Of a DNA stretch of 64,000 bases, positions 34,839 to 45,468 are shown in pieces (the first letter of the stretch is position 1; every line of letters starts with the position of its first letter). Origin of the DNA: Chloroflexus aggregans DSM 9485 (GTDB taxonomy: Bacteria > Chloroflexota > Chloroflexia > Chloroflexales > Chloroflexaceae); the NCBI RefSeq assembly GCF_000021945.1, contig NC_011831.1:902001-966000 (forward strand), read 5' to 3'. Below the pieces are notes generated by a model, which was not told where the DNA came from, ran no database searches, and saw nothing but the letters and a program-made list of their open reading frames with translations. Position numbers and translations under genes: made by a program.

Positions 34839-36383
34839 ATGATCATCTGCCCTTCGTGTGGTGCCCAAAACGAACCAACCAACCGCTTCTGTGATCAGTG
34901 CGGTACCCGCTTGGTCAATCCAACACCGATGACCGTCTCACCTGATCAGCCAACAGCGCTCGCACCGTCATGTCCGGTTTGCGGTGCAACGGTCTTGCCC
35001 GGTGAGCGTTTCTGCGACAACTGTGGTGCTGATCTGCTGAATACACCGGCTGCACCTTCAATTCCATCTGACCAAGCAACACTCATCGCACCACCAGACG
35101 CCCCCCAACTTTTTTGTCCAAGCTGTGGCGATCCGGTCTTACCTGGTGAACGCTTCTGCGACCATTGTGGCGCCGATCTTAGCCACCTAACCGCACCATC
35201 CGCCGATGCACCGACCGTCATCGCACCGCCCGCGCCCGAACCGCCGGCACCACCATCCGCCGATGCACCGACCGTCATCGCACCGCCTGCGCCCGAACCA
35301 CCGGCGCCACCATCCGCCGATGCACCAACCGTCATCGCACCGCCCGCGCCCGAACCGCCGGCGCCACCATCCGCCGATGCACCGACCGTCATCGCACCGC
35401 CCGCGCCCGAACCGCCGGCGCCACCATCCGCCGATGCACCGACCGTCATCGCACCGCCCGCGCCCGAACCACCGGCGCCACCCATCGACATACCGACCGT
35501 CAGTGGAACAGCATCCATCGCCGAACCGGTCGCACCGGCAGTTGGGACCGCACCTTTCGCCTCGGCGGCACCACCGCCGCCCGGTGATTGGGTAGCCGAA
35601 CGAGCGCGATTAGAAACCTTACTCGCCGCCCACCGTGACACCGTCGCTCAGTATGAGCAGATGGCCGCCCGCTACCCGGCAGGTAGCGTCCCGGCCTTCA
35701 TCCTCGCCGGACTCGATGCGGCACGGGCGGAATTAGCCAAGACTGAGGCCGAACTGGCCGCTCTCCCAAGCGGACCCGATCCGGCAGAGGTTGCCCGGCT
35801 CGAAGCGTTACTCGCCGCCCACCGTGACACCGTCGCTCAGTATGAGCAGATGGCCGCCCGCTACCCGGCAGGTAGCGTCCCGGCCTTCATCCTCGCCGGA
35901 CTCGATGCGGCACGGGCGGAATTAGCTAAGACCGAGGCCGAACTGACTGCCCTGATCGGCAATGCTCCACCATCGAGCACACCGATTGCTACACCGAACG
36001 CCCACCCCTCAGCTCCAACACCGCTTGGGACACCTATCGTAAACTTACCGCAAGAGGTTGCCTGTTTGGTGTTGGCCGATGGCAGTGAGATCATCTTGCC
36101 TCCCGGTAAAACGGAATACGTTATCGGACGAGAGGACCCGGTGAGCAATATCTTCCCGGAAATCGACCTTACTCCCTACGGTGGAGAGCTAGGAGGAGTG
36201 AGCCGCCAACACGCCAAGATCGTCCACGTCGGCAATCAATGGAGTATCATCGACCTCAACAGCACAAATCATACGCGCGTGAATGGCAATCGCATTGAGC
36301 CGCAAACGCCGGTGTCGATTAGCAATGGTACGAAATTGCAGTTTGGGCGCCTGGTGGCAACCTTCCAACTAAAAACCGGTTGA
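34839..36383 (+). CDS. Triple zinc-ribbon FHA protein with tandem repeats
   Basis: 514 residues. Three N-terminal zinc ribbons (about 4-22, 47-65, 92-110) are followed by five 19-residue Pro/Ala repeats starting SADAPTVIAPPAP (about 121-215). Next come two near-identical helical repeats (LLAAHRDTVAQYEQ..., about 261-306 and 324-369). A C-terminal FHA domain (about 420-510; YVIGRED, GGVSRQHAKI, NSTNHTRVNG) binds phosphothreonine. It is probably a flexible scaffold that reads the kinase's marks. Cytoplasmic. Confidence 0.93.
   Translation: MIICPSCGAQNEPTNRFCDQCGTRLVNPTPMTVSPDQPTALAPSCPVCGATVLPGERFCDNCGADLLNTPAAPSIPSDQATLIAPPDAPQLFCPSCGDPVLPGERFCDHCGADLSHLTAPSADAPTVIAPPAPEPPAPPSADAPTVIAPPAPEPPAPPSADAPTVIAPPAPEPPAPPSADAPTVIAPPAPEPPAPPSADAPTVIAPPAPEPPAPPIDIPTVSGTASIAEPVAPAVGTAPFASAAPPPPGDWVAERARLETLLAAHRDTVAQYEQMAARYPAGSVPAFILAGLDAARAELAKTEAELAALPSGPDPAEVARLEALLAAHRDTVAQYEQMAARYPAGSVPAFILAGLDAARAELAKTEAELTALIGNAPPSSTPIATPNAHPSAPTPLGTPIVNLPQEVACLVLADGSEIILPPGKTEYVIGREDPVSNIFPEIDLTPYGGELGGVSRQHAKIVHVGNQWSIIDLNSTNHTRVNGNRIEPQTPVSISNGTKLQFGRLVATFQLKTG
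35199..35483 (+). repeat. Five 57-base coding repeats
   Basis: Five in-frame copies of a 57-base unit encoding SADAPTVIAPPAPEPPAPP, nearly identical at DNA level with a few third-position changes. It can vary in copy number by slippage or recombination. Confidence 0.9.
35619..35945 (+). repeat. Duplicated 138-base coding segment
   Basis: Copies at 35619-35756 and 35808-35945, exactly 189 bases apart, differ at about two positions. Third-base identity points to recent duplication or gene conversion. Confidence 0.85.
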
Positions 36384-36888: not shown

Positions 36889-38319
36889 TCACGGATGTAG
36901 AAACAGTCGGTCAATTGCGGTTGCCAACTGACGTAGCGTCGTCACCTCATGCATTGCATCACACATCGGTGCATATTTGTAGATGTCACTGCTCAGTGAA
37001 CCGGGATCGTAGACACCCCACTTCCATCGTTCTTCAGTTGCAAACCAGACAATCCGCCGCGCTCGCCGTCGAATCTGCTCAAACGCCGGCAGATTCGGAT
37101 CATTCTCGTTGTTACGGCCATCACCAAGCACGATCACTGTTGTACGCCGATCAACCAGATGCAGTTGATCGCGGCAGAACTCGGCGAGAGCGTTACCGAG
37201 ATCGGTGCTATAACTGCGGGTAGGACGAATTTCGGTCAATACTTGTGTGATTGCCTGTTCGGGGCGTGATTCGGTAAAGTAGTGCGACATGTCGTACAGC
37301 CGGTCGATGAAGGCAAACGAGCGAGTACGGCTCACCTGATCGTGCAGGGCGTAGATCATCAACAGCATACACGACATGACGTGCTGGGTACTCACGCTGC
37401 GATCGCACAGAATGACCAGCTTCGGCTTGAGATGACGCTTGCGATGACGTACTAACATCGGGACGCCGCCGAAGCGCTGATTAGTGCGGATGGTGGCCTT
37501 CGCATCGAGCGTACCGGTCTTTCCACGACGCTGACGTAACGCCAGTCGAGTCCGGAGACGTGCAGCCAGTTTGCGCACAAGGGTACGCATTTCGGGCAAC
37601 AGACTCTCATCGAGCTGTTCGAGCGGCATATCGAGCAATTCACGCTCACTTGGCAGCCCCCTTCTCTGGCGTGGCCCTTGACCTTGGGCCTGTTCTTGCA
37701 TCTGTTGGGCAACCTGCTGACCAATCTGCTGTTCGAGCGTCGCGAGATTCTCACGGGCAGCTTGTTCAATCGCCCGCAGTGCCTCTTCGCGCATCCCTTG
37801 TGCGCGCAACTGTTCGAGCAATTGGCGCAACATCTGCTGCAGCCGATTCATCTGCAATTCACGCATTGCCTGTCGCGCCATCCAATCGCGGTAGCGCGGA
37901 TTGGTCAGATGAGGCGGCGAGACGTTGGCCAACATCGCCCGAATCTGCTGATTACTGAGCGGTTGACCACTAACCATACTCTGAAAAAGCTGGCTCAGCG
38001 GGCCGGGGGGAAACTGGGCAAGGAGCTGCTGCAACTGATGCATAAGTTGCTGCTGCTCTTCGGGCGAGAGCTGACCACCGCCGGCCTGCTGCAGCGGCGG
38101 CGGCGAGTCTTTGCCAAAGTAGAGCGGAAAGAGTTCGTTGAAGATGGCTTGGTCTTGTCGTTCCTTGATCAGAGCCGTCTGCAACGCCAAACGAAAGACA
38201 TTCCGATCGCTGATGCCGGCCTGCTCAATTGCCCGCAACGCATCGGCCGATTCGGCAACACTAATTCTCACGCCGGCAGCGCGTAACCCGGCAATAAACT
38301 CGGTAATTCGTCGATCCAT
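36889..38319 (-). CDS. CoxE-like vWA protein, partner of MoxR ATPase
   Basis: 476 residues from the ATG at 38319 with TGGAG upstream. The N-terminal half is helical and very Gln-rich (about 80-240; QQLMHQLQQLLAQ, QQVAQQMQEQAQGQ). The C-terminal vWA domain (about 290-470) has the metal motif DRSVS and belongs to the CoxE/YehP type. Such proteins work with MoxR AAA+ ATPases as chaperone pairs that activate or remodel other proteins. It starts ten bases after the moxR stop, so both are in one operon. Confidence 0.9.
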   Translation of the reverse strand: MDRRITEFIAGLRAAGVRISVAESADALRAIEQAGISDRNVFRLALQTALIKERQDQAIFNELFPLYFGKDSPPPLQQAGGGQLSPEEQQQLMHQLQQLLAQFPPGPLSQLFQSMVSGQPLSNQQIRAMLANVSPPHLTNPRYRDWMARQAMRELQMNRLQQMLRQLLEQLRAQGMREEALRAIEQAARENLATLEQQIGQQVAQQMQEQAQGQGPRQRRGLPSERELLDMPLEQLDESLLPEMRTLVRKLAARLRTRLALRQRRGKTGTLDAKATIRTNQRFGGVPMLVRHRKRHLKPKLVILCDRSVSTQHVMSCMLLMIYALHDQVSRTRSFAFIDRLYDMSHYFTESRPEQAITQVLTEIRPTRSYSTDLGNALAEFCRDQLHLVDRRTTVIVLGDGRNNENDPNLPAFEQIRRRARRIVWFATEERWKWGVYDPGSLSSDIYKYAPMCDAMHEVTTLRQLATAIDRLFLHP

Positions 38320-38329
38320 ATCTACTCCA

Positions 38330-39301
38330 TCAGTTGTTCGTCCAATCGCTCCCCCGATAACTGCCACGCGGTCGATCCGGACGATCGGGTCGATCCGGGC
38401 GATCACCTTGCTGTAGGAGCCGGCGTGCCCGCTGCAAATCGCTCTCGTACTTAAGCAGGACATTCAGCGTCGTATCGAGGGTCGCCTTATCGAGCTGACG
38501 CGCATTCAATTCGACCAATGCCCGCGCCCAATCAAGGGTCTCGGAAACACTCGGATGCTTCTTCAGATCGAGCGTGCGTAGACGTTGTACCAAAGCCACC
38601 GCTTCACGGGCCAACTTTGGCGCCAAACCGGGCACTTTCAACTGAACAACCCGTAGTTCGGCTTCTAAATCGGGATAATCGATATGGATGTAGAGGCAGC
38701 GTCGCTTCAGCGCTTCACTCAACTCGCGGGTATTATTCGAGGTAAGGATCACGGTAGGAACATGCTTCGCCTTCAGCGTTCCCAATTCAGGCACCGACAC
38801 CTGAAAATCACTCAAAACCTCGAGTAAAAAGGCCTCGAATTCAGCATCAGCCCGGTCGATCTCATCGATCAGGAGTACTACCGGTTTATCGCTGGTAATC
38901 GCGCGCAACAATGGACGCGGCAGCAAAAAACGCTCCGAGAAGAAAACATCTTCCTGGGCAGCTAACCGGTCGGCAGCTTCACGCAGACTCTGCGCATCAC
39001 CGAGCAGATCGGACAACTTATCGCGGAGGAGCTGGGTATAGAGCAACTGCTTGGCGTACTCCCACTCGTAAAGTGCTTTTGTCTCGTCAAGTCCTTCGTA
39101 GCACTGTAGACGGATCAACTCACGACCGAGTGCTGCCGCCCACGCCTTAGCCAGTTCGGTTTTGCCTACTCCAGCCGGCCCTTCGGCCAGCAACGGCTTA
39201 CCGAGACGCTCGGCAAGGAAGACTGCCGTGCTGATCTCATCAGAGGCGATATAATTTTGCCGCCCCAACATATCGCGAACATCAGTCATCGAATGAAACA
39301 T
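38330..39301 (-). CDS. MoxR family AAA+ ATPase
   Basis: 323 residues from the ATG at 39301; a longer reading to 39421 is less likely because it runs into the spacer. Walker A GPAGVGKTE (about 42), Walker B VLLIDEIDRAD, and sensor I LTSNN are complete; the central ATPase is the MoxR type. The chain ends in four DRP triplets (DRPDRPDRPDRP) and a short polar tail. It probably remodels a client with the CoxE-like vWA protein encoded directly after it. Confidence 0.93.
   Translation of the reverse strand: MFHSMTDVRDMLGRQNYIASDEISTAVFLAERLGKPLLAEGPAGVGKTELAKAWAAALGRELIRLQCYEGLDETKALYEWEYAKQLLYTQLLRDKLSDLLGDAQSLREAADRLAAQEDVFFSERFLLPRPLLRAITSDKPVVLLIDEIDRADAEFEAFLLEVLSDFQVSVPELGTLKAKHVPTVILTSNNTRELSEALKRRCLYIHIDYPDLEAELRVVQLKVPGLAPKLAREAVALVQRLRTLDLKKHPSVSETLDWARALVELNARQLDKATLDTTLNVLLKYESDLQRARRLLQQGDRPDRPDRPDRPRGSYRGSDWTNN
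38369..38404 (-). repeat. Four 9-base repeats at the 3' end of moxR
   Basis: Four tandem nine-base units encode DRPDRPDRPDRP. Synonymous differences between units show that the repeat is not brand new. Confidence 0.75.
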
Positions 39302-39541
39302 GCCCGTGGGCCTTTCTACGTTGCGTGATAGCAGAGGTAAACCACCTTGAGGGTGAAAAACGCCGGTACGATAGCGAGAGGGTTGGTAACACAAGGCCAG
39401 GTTGCCGGACAACGTCAACAATCACCGTTGTGCGAGGGTATCGTTACGTGCCACTTGCGTATGGACACCCTCTTGAGTTAACCACCGGATACAACTATTA
39501 TATCACCGTTTCACGCCGCATACCGGGAATTATTCCTGCGG

Positions 39542-40210: not shown

Positions 40211-43015
40211 TTACGGTACGGGCAAGCGAGCAGCCGGATCACCCAACAACATGTAGTTACGGGCATCGTTACGGGCCATCCACAGCGTTGACAACTCACG
40301 CGGTTCCGGTTGCTTGCCGAATTTGATATTCTCAAGTTCCTCGGCTAAGGTCATCGAGCGTGCCGCTTGAATAATGTTGAATTGATCGGTCGCACTCCCC
40401 AGCCGCTTCCCGGCCACCAACCGACCGATCACATCTTCAAACGCTTGGGTCTGACCACGCGCGCCGTCCATGCTGAAACCGTATGTCCATGCCCGTTCCA
40501 CATGACCAACCACCCCAAGCGCACCGCGTAGCAAGAGCTGCTGCGGTAGTTGGGCGACGAAGGTAAACGGGGCGATGACCGGACGGCCTTTTTCCGGGTC
40601 AACGATAAACTCATCTCGCTGTGGGCAACCGGCGCCATAGCAGGCAAACAGCAAGGCAACCATACCTTCGAGCGAGAGGTTACTTGGCAAATCTTCGGCA
40701 GCAAACCAATGCTCGCGCTTAATCCCCCCAAAACCGGTCCAGTCTTGCGTCACCAGTGCTCCTTGATAAAGGATCAACTCGCGGTCGGTGACCGGCAGGC
40801 CTAGACCATGCGTCGCGCTAAACCAGATCGCCGGTGGCCGGTTTCCATCACGCAGAGCTTGCTCAAGGTTACTGCGGGTTGCGTCGTTTGCCAACAACAA
40901 CCTCTTCCCGTAGCCCAATCGCTGTGGTAGACCACGGTCGTGCCACTCGGCCAGCGGCTTCACCAGCTCAAGCGCACTACGTTCGGTCGATTTATCGAGA
41001 TCGTGACGGGTACCAAAGTATACAATCTCGCGGCGTATCCGAACATCGTTGACCGACCTTCGTTCGTAGTCAACCAGGCGCTGCGCGTAGGTAGTGTAAT
41101 CGGCATAGCGATGGTGACCGCGTTCGTCGGTGAAACAGAGACGACCCACTCCCCAGAAGATATCGAGTTCGTATTGGACATTGAAGCTAATAAACGCCTG
41201 ATCGTTCGCGGTAAGCGGGCCGGGGCGCGCTGCAATCAGGATATAGAAGGGAACGCCTTGGCTCGGCTTGACCGGGCCGGGCATCGTGCCATGACGGGCG
41301 AGCCAGCTATTGACTCGCTCACCCGGACGATACACCAAGACCGGTGCCCGCTGTTCCCACGGTTGCTTGGGATCGGCGTAGCGACTAGCCCATTCAGCAC
41401 ACGTTTCACCAGGACGGAAGTCCACCAGCGGGAGGTCAATACCCTGCTGGTAGGCACGATACTCGATGAGCGGCCACAACGCCTGAATAATACGAGCATC
41501 GTCAACCGCGTTCACCATAACCGCCCAACGCGCTTGCGCGAGGTCTTCTTGATCCACATCGGCAACCACTCCAAAATGTCTTTCTTCAGCCTCGTTACGG
41601 GTCTTGTGGAGTGTCTGCAATTCTTTCGGATCATCGCTACGTTGGGCCAATTCGCTGGCGGCTTTCGCATCGATCCGCAACAACGGTTCGCCTCGGCGGC
41701 CATCGATCCCATTCGGGTACAACTCATCACGGCTCTGCTCATCGGCAATAAGGATCAATGGGCCGCTATAGCCGGCCACAACTGCTGCCGGTTCAGGTGA
41801 TGGTGGTAACGCCGGGGCCGGCTCAACGGCGCTCATGACCGGTTGCGGTTGCCCACCCACCAGCGCCTGCAACCGATTGATCAACGTATCAAGCCGGGCA
41901 CGGATCACCTGAGCTTCGGCAAGAATCGCCGCCAACTCCGAGGTAGTCGGCGCACTCAACGTCGCTGTCGACGCAGTTGCTGCTTCAATGATCACACCGG
42001 TAGCGATCAACGCTGCCAAACCCTCTTCATAGATGAGTTGATATGGGACATAGCAATAACCGGGACCATCAGGATTTTCGTTCGCCCATTCGCTTCCCCA
42101 CGAATTCCGCACAATAAAATAGCCACCGCCGGGAGCCGTCGGATCATCACGGTAGCCCAATACACACATCGCATGACCACCCAACCGTTGCTCACCGGGC
42201 AACGCCTTACGCACCCGCCCAATTCGACGGACCTGCCCACTACTCGTCCAATGCTCACCGATCATCAAACCGATCAACACCGGTCGGCCGGCGGCCAGTG
42301 CAGCCTTGATCTGGTTCACATCACGGGGAGGCAACTGTTCAACCCCGCTAATCCGACGCTGCTTAGCTTCCTGAAATGCTCTTTCACTTGGACGCTCGTG
42401 ACCGGGGTTGGTATGGTCTACCGGTTCGGGGCGATAGGGCCACGTCTCCTCACGGCAGACCCCTAACTCGGCAACGGCGCGTAATGCGACCAACGGGTTC
42501 GTACCGACATCACCGGGGATGCCATCACGCGCTTTACTAATCCAGTAAATAAACTGTTCGGAGAGATCGGTGGGGTCGTTGCTAAGTGCCTGCACCATGG
42601 CAGCCACCGTAAACGCGACACACGTATTGCGTGGTCCTTGACTGATTGGCGGAGGCAGAGTCGCAATCGGTGGTACTTCGGCGGGCAAGCCGACCGGTGG
42701 ACTAAACGAAGTTGCATCGACCTCCGGCAGATCGGTGAAGATCGCACCGGTACCGACCGGCTCCATCGCGACATCAACGCTAAACGAGCTGGCATCAGGC
42801 GCCACTTCCTGCGCTGCCATCACCATTGCCCGCACATCGTTTTCACTTCGCCCCAACACCTGAGCAAGTGCAGCCAGCCCACTCCCAAGACCGGCATTAC
42901 TCGCACGCGCCGTCGCTACCAACTCTTCGACACTGGTAATCCAGTAGTCGGCCAACACCTTTCGGGTCGTCTCATCGATCGCAGGCACTGCGGTAAGCGG
43001 GGTCAAGGCGCGCAT
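40211..43015 (-). CDS. Papain-like plus caspase/gingipain-like double cysteine protease
   Basis: 934 residues from the ATG at 43015 with GGAGAAG upstream. The first 70 residues look like a helix-hairpin-helix DUF4332-type domain (ITSVEELVATARA). A C1 (papain) protease follows (about 110-345) with Q126, C132 in SQGPRNTC, H281 in LGGHAMCVLGY and N304 in VRNSWGSEW. The C-terminal 250 residues carry a clan CD pair: H736 in FSATHG and C792 in FACYGAG, ending NYMLLGDPAARLP as in C25/CHAT proteins. The middle part (about 415-690) is unassigned. No signal peptide, so probably cytoplasmic. Confidence 0.88.
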   Translation of the reverse strand: MRALTPLTAVPAIDETTRKVLADYWITSVEELVATARASNAGLGSGLAALAQVLGRSENDVRAMVMAAQEVAPDASSFSVDVAMEPVGTGAIFTDLPEVDATSFSPPVGLPAEVPPIATLPPPISQGPRNTCVAFTVAAMVQALSNDPTDLSEQFIYWISKARDGIPGDVGTNPLVALRAVAELGVCREETWPYRPEPVDHTNPGHERPSERAFQEAKQRRISGVEQLPPRDVNQIKAALAAGRPVLIGLMIGEHWTSSGQVRRIGRVRKALPGEQRLGGHAMCVLGYRDDPTAPGGGYFIVRNSWGSEWANENPDGPGYCYVPYQLIYEEGLAALIATGVIIEAATASTATLSAPTTSELAAILAEAQVIRARLDTLINRLQALVGGQPQPVMSAVEPAPALPPSPEPAAVVAGYSGPLILIADEQSRDELYPNGIDGRRGEPLLRIDAKAASELAQRSDDPKELQTLHKTRNEAEERHFGVVADVDQEDLAQARWAVMVNAVDDARIIQALWPLIEYRAYQQGIDLPLVDFRPGETCAEWASRYADPKQPWEQRAPVLVYRPGERVNSWLARHGTMPGPVKPSQGVPFYILIAARPGPLTANDQAFISFNVQYELDIFWGVGRLCFTDERGHHRYADYTTYAQRLVDYERRSVNDVRIRREIVYFGTRHDLDKSTERSALELVKPLAEWHDRGLPQRLGYGKRLLLANDATRSNLEQALRDGNRPPAIWFSATHGLGLPVTDRELILYQGALVTQDWTGFGGIKREHWFAAEDLPSNLSLEGMVALLFACYGAGCPQRDEFIVDPEKGRPVIAPFTFVAQLPQQLLLRGALGVVGHVERAWTYGFSMDGARGQTQAFEDVIGRLVAGKRLGSATDQFNIIQAARSMTLAEELENIKFGKQPEPRELSTLWMARNDARNYMLLGDPAARLPVP

Positions 43016-43076: not shown

Positions 43077-43895
43077 TCACATTCGCGCCAAGATACCGCG
43101 CAGAAGTGCAGCAAACTGAGGCTTCGCTGCCTCACCGGCGGCAATAACTTCTTCGTGATTAGCCGGTGGGCCGTCAGGCAAAGCGAGGTTGGTAATCAGC
43201 GAGAAGCCAAGCACGCGCATTCCACTATGCACTGCAACAATCACTTCCGGCGCTGTCGACATGCCCACTGCATCGGCCCCCCACATGCGTACCATCCGTA
43301 GCTCAGCAGCGCTCTCGAAATGGGGACCGCTCAGCATACAATAGACACCCTCACGCAACACCACACCCAACTCGGCAGCGACAGTGCGGGCAAGCGGAAC
43401 GAGTTCATGCTCAAATGCGCCGACCATAGCCGGAAAGCGTGGCCCCAACCGCTCATCGTTTAGGCCGCGCAACGGGTGATGACCGGCCATACCCGGTAAG
43501 AAGATTTGATCGCTGATCCGCATAATATCGCCGACCTTCCAATCGGCGCGCAAACCACCCGCCGCGTTGGTGACGATGAGCGTATCGCACCCCAACGCTC
43601 GTAAGACGCGCACCGGGAAGGTAACCTCTTGCATGCTGTACCCTTCGTAAAAGTGAAAGCGACCACGCATGACGGCTACCTGCTGTCCGGCCAGCAGACC
43701 AACCGCTAACTCACCGCGATGCCCGATTACCTTTGGCTCGTGAAAGCCGGGAATATCTCGATACGGAATGACTACCGGATCATCCATCTCGTCGGCCAAC
43801 GCACTTAACCCCGAACCGAGGATGAGGCCGACTCGTGGGGTATGACGTAACCGTGGCACGATCGCTGCGCGAGCTTGTTCGATGTCGTTGTACAT
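43077..43895 (-). CDS. punA: Purine nucleoside phosphorylase
   Basis: 272 residues, the trimeric (PNP-I) length. It splits inosine and guanosine with phosphate in purine salvage. The phosphate site GSGLSALAD, the MRGRFHFYEGY segment, TNAAGG, and the base-binding MSTAPEVIVA and GFSLITNLA (the Asn that favours 6-oxopurines) are intact. It precedes the double protease gene by 61 bases on the same strand and may share its transcript. Confidence 0.95.
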   Translation of the reverse strand: MYNDIEQARAAIVPRLRHTPRVGLILGSGLSALADEMDDPVVIPYRDIPGFHEPKVIGHRGELAVGLLAGQQVAVMRGRFHFYEGYSMQEVTFPVRVLRALGCDTLIVTNAAGGLRADWKVGDIMRISDQIFLPGMAGHHPLRGLNDERLGPRFPAMVGAFEHELVPLARTVAAELGVVLREGVYCMLSGPHFESAAELRMVRMWGADAVGMSTAPEVIVAVHSGMRVLGFSLITNLALPDGPPANHEEVIAAGEAAKPQFAALLRGILARM

Positions 43896-43978: not shown

Positions 43979-44668
43979 CTAGATTCGGCTCAATAAATCA
44001 CGCTTCTTTGCTTCAAACTCCTCTGGGGACAGAATACCGCGATCACGCAAACGAGCTAACTCTTCGAGGGTACGCTGAATATCGATTGCGCCTCCGACCG
44101 GACGACCGGGAGTATAGCCATCGGTATCGAGATAGCCATAACCGCGGTCGAGGTTGTGCTTTGCTTCGAGTAATGCACGTTTGAACTCGAGCGGTGCTTC
44201 AATCCGATCCATGACGTTTGCACCCTCTGCCCCTGAGGCCGTCAGAATCTCAATAGTACCGAAATTAAAGATTCGGCCCAGAATACTCTGACGCAATTCG
44301 ATATCATTAATCTTTTCCAACGATGAATCGATCACCCGTTTGTTAAACACACCACGGATTTGTAACACGCGCCGGTCGGTGATCACAATTTGTTCAGAAT
44401 TCCAGCGTAAAAAATCGAGAAATCCACTGATCAGCACAATCACACTAATCACAATACAGATCAGGAGGATCAGACTACTGATGCTGATTCCACCAATGGT
44501 TGCCGTTGGATTGTTGCTAAACGCCACATTGGAAGCAACACCCGCTGCAACCAACACGGCAATGAGGCTCAATTCGGTCAAAATATTGACAATCAACACA
44601 AAAATATGCTGGCGGGCAATATACAGAATCTGTTCGCCCCGCCCGAGCAGGCTTTCAACATAACTCAT
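43979..44668 (-). CDS. Bacterial PH-domain membrane protein with SHOCT tail
   Basis: 229 residues; GGAGGG precedes the start. Two hydrophobic hairpin segments (about 22-80) are followed by a bacterial PH domain (about 80-160; NSEQIVITDRRVLQIRGVFNKRVIDSSLEKINDI), the YdbS-like type. The last 30 residues form a SHOCT motif (LEELARLRDRGILSPEEFEAKKRDLL), often an oligomerisation tail. Function unknown. It lies 44 bases after recO. Confidence 0.9.
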   Translation of the reverse strand: MSYVESLLGRGEQILYIARQHIFVLIVNILTELSLIAVLVAAGVASNVAFSNNPTATIGGISISSLILLICIVISVIVLISGFLDFLRWNSEQIVITDRRVLQIRGVFNKRVIDSSLEKINDIELRQSILGRIFNFGTIEILTASGAEGANVMDRIEAPLEFKRALLEAKHNLDRGYGYLDTDGYTPGRPVGGAIDIQRTLEELARLRDRGILSPEEFEAKKRDLLSRI

Positions 44669-44712: not shown

Positions 44713-45468
44713 CTACGATAACGATAAGAGACGATCAAGAAACTCAGCCGATTTCAGATCACGTTCGAGCAGGTACCGCAAACTGGCCCGTAGCAAATCG
44801 GTAACTTCACGACGGGTTTCCACCGAGATACGTAAACGTTCACTGACGGTTATCGGTTGCGTCTGGAGATAGCGGAGCAGACGAAACGCCCCTTCGCTCA
44901 TCGATAACGCAGCCGGATCGGCGGCCCGATCGCGCGGGCAGAGAACACCACCCAGTGTTGGACTATACCGATCGGCATCAGGTGTCAAAATATCGTCACA
45001 AACGACGCAACGGTGCAGTTGCGGGCGATAACCAAGCAGGTGGAGGAGATGTAGCTCGAAGCTGCGCAGGGTGAGATCGGGTTGTGGGCTACGATCGAGT
45101 GACATGAAGGTCTCGACGAGAAGCTGGAACAGCGGCGGGTTGTCGTCTTCTTCCACGGTGAAACGATCGTACAATTCAGCAGCGTAATAACCACAGCCGA
45201 GACGGCTCAGCTCGGAGCGTAAGGTTGGAAAAGCATGTACTATCTGACTTTGGGTGACAATATCAAGATTACGACCGACGGCAAGCATCATATGTACGTG
45301 CGTGAAGAGTTCGATGTGACCGGCCAGTCGGCTTTTTGTTTTGCGCGCGCCTTTGGCAATGACCCATCGCTTACCCTTTGGGGTAGCAATGAGCAGGAGA
45401 CGGTCGGCTTCGGCAACATCATTACGGCGAAGAATGACAGCTTCGCTGCGATAAACTCGCTCTCGCAT
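44713..45468 (-). CDS. recO: DNA repair protein RecO
   Basis: 251 residues. RecO loads RecA with RecR on SSB-coated DNA. An N-terminal OB-fold (about 1-80; ERVYRSEAVILRRNDVAEADRLL) and a helical C-terminal part with a zinc site (CVVCDD...GGVLCPRD) match the family. It is separated from smc by a shared 263-base divergent promoter region. Confidence 0.95.
   Translation of the reverse strand: MRERVYRSEAVILRRNDVAEADRLLLIATPKGKRWVIAKGARKTKSRLAGHIELFTHVHMMLAVGRNLDIVTQSQIVHAFPTLRSELSRLGCGYYAAELYDRFTVEEDDNPPLFQLLVETFMSLDRSPQPDLTLRSFELHLLHLLGYRPQLHRCVVCDDILTPDADRYSPTLGGVLCPRDRAADPAALSMSEGAFRLLRYLQTQPITVSERLRISVETRREVTDLLRASLRYLLERDLKSAEFLDRLLSLS

Follow-up and report, generated by a model that had tools for sequence, protein, structure and literature searches.

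Results

A single chain with two unrelated cysteine proteases

We analysed a stretch of 64,000 nucleotides from the heat-loving, filamentous bacterium Chloroflexus aggregans DSM 9485 (contig NC_011831.1, positions 902,001 to 966,000 of the forward strand; this whole stretch is called the window hereafter) and found that one of its genes encodes a single chain carrying two complete, evolutionarily unrelated cysteine-protease domains, one papain-like and one gingipain-like (C25), with the catalytic residues of both intact. Both active sites are very probably functional. An original prediction, made from the letters of the sequence alone, had placed the open reading frame (ORF) correctly and left unsaid that it lies on the minus strand; the six catalytic residues that it named (Q126, C132, H281, N304, H736 and C792) are all where it put them, and its view that two unrelated folds, papain C1 and clan CD, share one protein was borne out by the fold matches to xylellain and gingipain R described below. 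The start ATG of the ORF of 934 amino acids (aa) corresponds to the same methionine in the orthologues. The gene and its parts, in window coordinates, are as follows.

40211..43015, minus strand: whole gene, 934 aa, with a helical N-terminal domain, papain-like domain, linker and gingipain-like (C25) unit
42800..43015, minus strand: N-terminal helical domain, residues 1-72, helix-hairpin-helix (HhH)-like by eye
41981..42733, minus strand: papain-like C1 domain, residues 95-345 (PF00112 and xylellain 3ois)
42638-42640, minus strand: papain oxyanion residue Q126
42620..42622, minus strand: papain nucleophile C132
42173..42175, minus strand: papain catalytic H281
42104-42106, minus strand: papain N304
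41759..41980, minus strand: linker, residues 346-419, with a helix at 358-386 and then a low-confidence stretch at 388-414
41051..41758, minus strand: gingipain-type N-terminal subdomain, residues 420-655; the structural match to 1cvr starts at residue 474-476
40214..41050, minus strand: caspase-like C-terminal subdomain of the C25 unit, residues 656-934, with 1cvr as best structural match
40808..40810, minus strand: clan CD catalytic H736
40640..40642, minus strand: clan CD catalytic C792

The full-length AlphaFold model, built from a 64-row alignment, had a mean predicted local distance difference test score (pLDDT) of 89.5 and a predicted template modelling score (pTM) of 0.61, and its pLDDT fell below 50 only within the linker, ahead of the linker helix (residues 349-356) and behind it (388-414). 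No long hydrophobic segment was found: the top 19-residue window averages 1.64 (residue 333), and within the first 60 residues no window exceeds 0.98. Since the hydrophobicity windows stay low, no membrane segment or signal peptide was seen, and the double protease would be located in the cytosol. Scans of the protein against NCBIfam and PADLOC gave one weak match each (E 0.09 and 0.026).

The papain half

By its sequence and predicted fold, the N-terminal half is a member of peptidase family C1, and it is predicted to be active. It matches PF00112 (E=1.4e-10, residues 131-312, 42.1 bits against a cut-off of 20.7) as well as xylellain (PDB 3ois), both by sequence (E=4.4e-21) and by predicted fold (Z 26.7 over 241 residues with 26% identity, residues 87-343), and the proposed papain-type set Q126/C132/H281/N304 is kept in all the papain-bearing relatives aligned (see below). 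Xylellain has the same fold and the same Q/C/H/N set, whereas the papain domain of the protein studied here has a helical domain ahead of it and a second protease on the same chain behind it.

The N-terminal helical domain was modelled as four helices with a mean pLDDT of about 94, and it is present in 20 of the 26 papain rows examined, including every row that is fused to, split from or paired with C25. The HhH/DUF4332-like leader proposed from the sequence stands in so far as a helical fold is predicted confidently; the DUF4332 label, or that of any other Pfam domain, is unsupported, as a Pfam search with residues 1-80 of eight sequences gave no supported domain (best E 0.06) and listed neither DUF4332 nor HhH at E up to 5. 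In another Chloroflexota genome, the helical-papain domain is joined to a different, non-C25 C-terminal region (L160:497-2347).

The gingipain-like half

It is by its predicted fold that the C-terminal half is kin to the gingipains. Residues 415-934 modelled alone (mean pLDDT 86.1, pTM 0.89) matched gingipain R (1cvr) with a Z of 23.8 and a root-mean-square deviation of 3.5 over 311 residues, the next non-gingipain structure having a Z of 15.2, and the full-length model matched it with a Z of 22.9 over residues 474-934. After 1cvr came Csx29/TPR-CHAT (Z about 15), separase, SAVED-CHAT, metacaspase, MALT1 and legumain. In Foldseek, Kgp and RgpB headed the matches of the C25-unit model (E 3.9e-8 and 2.8e-6) with TM-scores of only 0.41-0.48, and with the full-length model the 50 matches listed were all papain-like chains, gingipain being seen in the separate structural alignment. 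A 25-row sequence profile of the C25 unit found no match among PDB chains at E up to 1. PF01364 (C25) is sub-threshold in this protein (E=0.013, 15.2 bits against 23); its cut-off is passed by five of the seven related C25-unit proteins scanned (L033 and L036 are below it), and L107 also passes. For the Pfam CHAT family (PF12770), no match was listed at E up to 10, with filters that drop most matches above 0.1.

In the AlphaFold model, H736 and C792 come directly behind strands E728-734 and E786-790, respectively, and PMC4357240 likewise describes the catalytic dyad of gingipain as sitting where strands 3 and 4 reach their C-terminal ends. This fold, together with the invariance reported below, agrees with the clan CD His-Cys pair that had been proposed for the C-terminus. 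Because the 1cvr match covers residues 474-934, the approximately 275 residues between the two domains that had been left unassigned can now be read as a linker, partly of low confidence, followed by the first gingipain subdomain. The gingipains RgpB and Kgp (1cvr, 4rbm) have the same two-subdomain catalytic unit, in which His and Cys each follow one of two consecutive core strands (Z 21-24), whereas the protein studied here is only 12-14% identical to them and has no signal-like hydrophobic start. It also ends at the catalytic unit, residue 934 aligning to residue 351 of the 432-residue 1cvr chain, so that the C-terminal Ig-like domain of the solved gingipains is missing. Hints from the S1 pocket conflict on the P1 preference: D674 is invariant, and R841 lies near the position of RgpB Gln282. 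The segment R841-A842-W843 falls roughly at RgpB Gln282...Trp284 (RgpB positions as given in PMC4357240, correspondence by eye), and hence the P1 preference may differ from that of RgpB.

Conservation and selection

We aligned 64 rows picked from the best relatives (alignment A2), of which 30 bear the papain domain and 60 the C25 unit. The papain tetrad is invariant in 30/30 of the former, H736 and C792 are invariant in 60/60 of the latter, and a homologue lacking the histidine or the cysteine, which the original prediction had named as evidence against the pair, was not found among these 60. Two loci (L013 and L014) for which a longer antisense ORF, without catalytic residues, had been read were left out of a 20-locus comparison, and the 64-row counts come from a separate alignment.

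Against the seven orthologues of the genus, the nonsynonymous rate (dN) was 0.06-0.08 in the papain domain and 0.05-0.08 for residues 656-932, the last segment of C25; it was 0.36-0.66 in the linker compared to 0.05-0.12 in the folded domains. Synonymous sites are near or at saturation in this comparison, and wherever the synonymous rate (dS) is unsaturated, dN/dS is well below 0.1 in both catalytic domains. Both protease domains are, by these sequence comparisons, under strong purifying selection, and the linker much less so.

Distribution of the fusion and of its halves

A search for the same domain order in other genomes, which the original prediction had called for, found the fusion in one open frame in 25 of the 36 other genomes of the family, and it is present in 8/8 genomes of the genus Chloroflexus. 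In one of these 25, G013, the last ~65 residues are in another frame. Elsewhere in the family, the halves form two ORFs in G029, and G028 has two ORFs together with a fused copy at a contig end (L083); in G009 the halves lie on two contigs and in G016 they are fragments. C25 units only are found in 4/36 genomes (G021, G023, G024 and G031), and neither half in 3/36 (G020, G022 and G030). The fusion is absent from 24 genomes in the rest of the order. In a search of the phylum, scored with at most two candidates per genome, 50 of 301 genomes matched, and all 18 with a full-length match belong to the window's own family. A plasmid collection gave 27 records, each matching one half only. A viral origin was rejected, as none of 15 pattern matches in viral contigs was a relative by tblastn. 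The fusion is, in short, an old one and under selection.

The C25 unit alone is widespread, occurring in Cyanobacteriota, Planctomycetota, Pseudomonadota, Actinomycetota, Thermodesulfobacteriota and others. The locus fractions given here and below describe a sample, the best 80 of 293 relatives. Among its loci L099-L139, 39/41 are without a papain match in the fetched stretch (one is cut at a contig end), and both C25 subdomains lie in one ORF in 40/41, the exception, L102, ending at a contig edge.

Four more loci (L088, L097, L104 and L138) have papain and C25 as separate genes that overlap or lie next to each other. In the two-ORF forms L088 and L097, the papain and C25 ORFs overlap by 4 bp, and in two Anaerolineae (L104 and L138) a C25 gene is adjacent to a helical-papain gene in the order opposite to that of the fusion. 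The genetic coupling of the two proteases takes three forms: fusion in one gene, a 4-bp overlap of two ORFs, and adjacency of two genes in the reverse order. In the midpoint-rooted C25 tree, the L104 and L138 genes branch with a Nostoc gene (support 99/96), apart from a 35-row clade (100/100) in which every fused gene in the tree is found, along with the two split genes and seven of the family's C25-only genes. The papain tree has too little support to tell one origin of the papain-C25 pairing from two; an unrelated long papain (L169_0), labelled as fused by length alone, was disregarded in the papain-row comparison. Taken together, gene order and the C25 tree suggest that the pairing of the two proteases came about on more than one occasion.

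The C25 unit also occurs in other settings: in a member of another family of the same order, it is fused to a carbon-nitrogen hydrolase (nitrilase) domain (L029:5646-8183). At one locus (L081:5890-14919), three C25-unit genes stand in tandem behind the fused gene and share its strand, and L079 and L080 have one extra copy each.

Gene neighbourhoods of the relatives

Of the 41 loci L099-L139, 26 have a gene for an nSTAND1-like protein somewhere in the 6 kb that was fetched. Three of the 41 loci (L102, L130 and L133) belong to the window's family and the other 38 lie outside; without the family members, the fraction is 26/38, and in total 27/79 loci have such a gene. In the 23 genomes with a measured nSTAND1 density, 16/23 loci carry an nSTAND1-like gene compared to about 0.6 expected, given a background of at least 334 matches in about 169 Mb and loci spanning 298 kb. 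This locus count used a profile built from those same loci. There is Pfam-level support for all 16, ten by direct scan and six by position, with the contig correspondence inferred from lengths and coordinates (L094, L099, L103, L107, L128 and L139). In one Pfam scan of ten of the nSTAND1-like proteins, all ten were confirmed as nSTAND1.

The operon-like gene order of the two Anaerolineae loci is CHAT-nSTAND1, an unassigned gene (445 or 434 aa), C25 and helical-papain, which places three different cysteine-protease domains (CHAT, C25 and papain) in series. In Candidatus Chloroploca sp. Khr17, a diverged second fused copy (L082) stands behind an nSTAND1-WD40 gene and a DEAD-box gene in a similarly operon-like order, all on one strand and separated by 26 and 6 bases, the contig correspondence between scans being inferred from number and position. 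Within the genus Chloroflexus, a near full-length nSTAND1 match is found in 6/8 genomes, and it is these six that have retained, intact, a separate C25 paralogue, which is interrupted by a stop in G001 and is a weak 79-position fragment in the genome of the window. The latter genome has nine CHAT matches, eight of them above the cut-off, as well as a 1917-aa frame with CHAT and a partial nSTAND1-like match (G000:C1:4492039-4493511), a possible candidate for an activator in trans or a partner of the double protease.

Other neighbours of the C25 unit were also seen. In Planctomycetes, a lipoxygenase gene lies directly upstream of the C25-unit gene (L124:4171-5907, by Pfam; L121:4315-6051, a similar ORF, by resemblance). 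A recurrent neighbour of 437-464 aa with a similar-looking start (L100:7451-8824, L103:4628-5974, L161:1417-2730 and L093:2980-4374) gave only a sub-threshold alpha/beta-hydrolase match, in one of the four.

The locus in the Chloroflexus family

Upstream of the double-protease gene, the window has three genes on the same strand.

43077..43895, minus strand: purine nucleoside phosphorylase (PNP; PF01048)
43979..44668, minus strand: bacterial PH and SHOCT protein (PF03703, PF09851)
44713..45468, minus strand: RecO (PF02565, PF11967)

The order recO-PH-PNP-protease recurs in the family. The setting could be examined for 21 fused genes, which have at least 3.5 kb of sequence ahead of them. Upstream of these and on their strand, PNP is found in 19/21, PH-SHOCT in 18/21, RecO in 18/21 and all three in 18/21; L077 keeps PNP only, and L082 and L089 are entirely without this setting. 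Directly downstream, an M20-family peptidase is found in 6/25 fused genes with enough downstream sequence.

Also downstream in the window lies a CoxD/CoxE-like pair of a MoxR ATPase and a von Willebrand factor A (vWA) protein (36889-39421), with a HAD gene on the other strand between the pair and the protease. A MoxR gene with a CoxE-type vWA gene (PF05762) is near the protease gene in 5/29 loci, all of the genus Chloroflexus, and as the pair is restricted to Chloroflexus loci, a link to the VMAP ternary system (MoxR-vWA-VMAP) was rejected. Further along (34839-36383) lies a zinc-ribbon and FHA protein, the middle of which has several near-identical proline-rich repeats and a duplicated coiled-coil-like segment.

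Discussion

Relation to known systems

No papain-C25 fusion was named in the titles or abstract openings of the open-access papers listed. Papain-like proteases work together with caspase-like ones when plant and animal cells die, but there the two are separate proteins. The next-best structural relatives of the C25 unit after the gingipains, Csx29/TPR-CHAT and SAVED-CHAT along with separase (Z 14-15), include caspase-like parts of bacterial immune systems, whereas for our protein no Pfam CHAT match was listed at E up to 10 and no TPR or SAVED part was matched. Conflict systems with nSTAND1 and caspase-like proteases are described for multicellular bacteria including chloroflexi (Kaur et al. 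2020, PMC7159879; eLife 2021, PMC8195603). The main texts of these two reports do not mention C25 or gingipain and mention papain once each, in other contexts; unlike these systems, the gene in the window has no STAND neighbour. In bacterial immunity, a protease can activate a pro-enzyme effector, as in the caspase-nuclease (canu) pairs and the protease-activated nuclease modules described in PMC12799240. These modules are alike in that a protease activates a partner, the partner there being a nuclease and here a second protease on the same chain. In EACC1 caspase systems, a single-transmembrane EACC1 component lies 5' of the caspase gene; the genes upstream of the double protease are PNP, PH-SHOCT and RecO by their Pfam matches.

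A proposed two-protease module and its alternatives

We propose that the gene encodes a module of two proteases that works inside the cell, derives from STAND-controlled conflict systems, is activated in a regulated way and has been kept at a stable locus in Chloroflexus; we would give this an even chance of being right. In such a module, a papain-type C1 protease would be held back by its own N-terminal region, and a flexible linker would connect it with a complete C25 protease of gingipain type. In the ancestral operons, as in those of some relatives, a STAND NTPase (often CHAT-nSTAND1) would sense a trouble signal and switch on the downstream cysteine proteases. Upon the signal, the C25 unit might be activated in trans or by oligomerisation, the active unit would free the papain domain from its N-terminal block, and the freed domain would degrade cell proteins, leading to dormancy or suicide. 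That the protein is cytosolic, that its N-terminal region blocks the papain domain, in which order the halves are activated and what this leads to are inferences. A relay between the two halves, of which the original prediction had one activating or restraining the other, is plausible, and so is a role in conflict systems, to which the gene orders of relatives point (CHAT-nSTAND1/C25/papain and nSTAND1-WD40/DEAD-box/fused). The more specific version, that of a relay within one protein in which a caspase/gingipain initiator and a papain executioner, once run by CHAT-STAND, were fused and moved to a core locus as a self-contained switch for regulated death or proteolysis, is possible and on the whole rather doubtful.

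Several observations weigh against our proposal. The gene in the window occupies a stable locus of housekeeping type, whereas defence genes are typically mobile, and neither an nSTAND1 nor a CHAT-nSTAND1 gene lies beside it; the nSTAND1 matches in its genome are all partial (best E 7.1e-7). Within L061-L098, which hold all the fused genes scanned, only 1/38 loci has a flanking nSTAND1-like gene, and this one (L094) is C25-only. The nSTAND1 profile matches 13/14 control genomes, over the cut-off in three (the CHAT profile matches 1/14), so that weak nSTAND1 matches are unspecific. Not all loci are independent, several being from Nostoc, and the background nSTAND1 count is a lower bound, most genomes having 52 of up to 192 candidates scored; a threefold higher background density would still predict fewer than two matches in 298 kb. 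The linker has no conserved stretch resembling a processing site in the orthologue alignment, and the Anaerolineae helical-papain is closely matched in only 2/41 genomes related to the first of the two, itself included. Lastly, the fused label needs eight changes on the C25 tree as a whole, at least six of them forced by well-supported branches, and several changes fall within the 35-row clade. This implies repeated loss or gain of the papain part, which some of the relatives can evidently do without.

The stable Chloroflexus locus, which would also suit a function other than suicide, makes a domesticated, non-defence role a serious rival. The main alternative is that the protein is a housekeeping protease for intracellular turnover or quality control, its two halves breaking down damaged proteins with complementary specificities and being fused for co-localisation without any cascade, which we regard as a possibility, if not a probable one. 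It would account for the neighbourhood of PNP (19/21), PH-SHOCT and RecO (18/21) with the M20 peptidase downstream (6/25), for the fusion in every genome of the genus, and for its retention in the genome of the window and in G001, both of which are without a near full-length nSTAND1 match. It sits less well with the many relatives of the C25 unit near nSTAND1 or CHAT genes and with the diverged fused copy of Khr17 behind nSTAND1-WD40 and DEAD-box genes; moreover, the strict P1 specificity that PMC4357240 ascribes to clan CD proteases in general fits signalling more than bulk degradation. A less probable alternative is that the C25 half is mainly a regulator that processes itself or the papain zymogen, with no other substrate and no defence role. 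The extension of the xylellain match ahead of the catalytic core, to residue 87, would agree with such a built-in activator, as would the title of the xylellain study, which speaks of an intriguing activation mechanism, and the retention of the halves as one gene or overlapping ORFs in most of the family. However, C25 units are common without a papain partner (39/41 of the loci L099-L139, and C25 only in 4/36 family genomes) and must have other substrates there. That the two halves were juxtaposed by chance or artefact, be it an assembly join, a mis-called frame or a decaying fusion, is contradicted by the same architecture in 25/36 other genomes of the family and by a dN/dS well below 0.1 in both catalytic domains (at unsaturated dS); only the unfused two-ORF forms L088 and L097 speak for it, and its likelihood is negligible.

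A module derived from STAND-controlled conflict systems is the reading that we propose for the double protease. With both proteases on one chain, conserved across the family, and with unfused relatives beside STAND sensors, the protein offers a model, open to direct test, for the wiring of a protease cascade, and the system may show how a defence module becomes a core gene.

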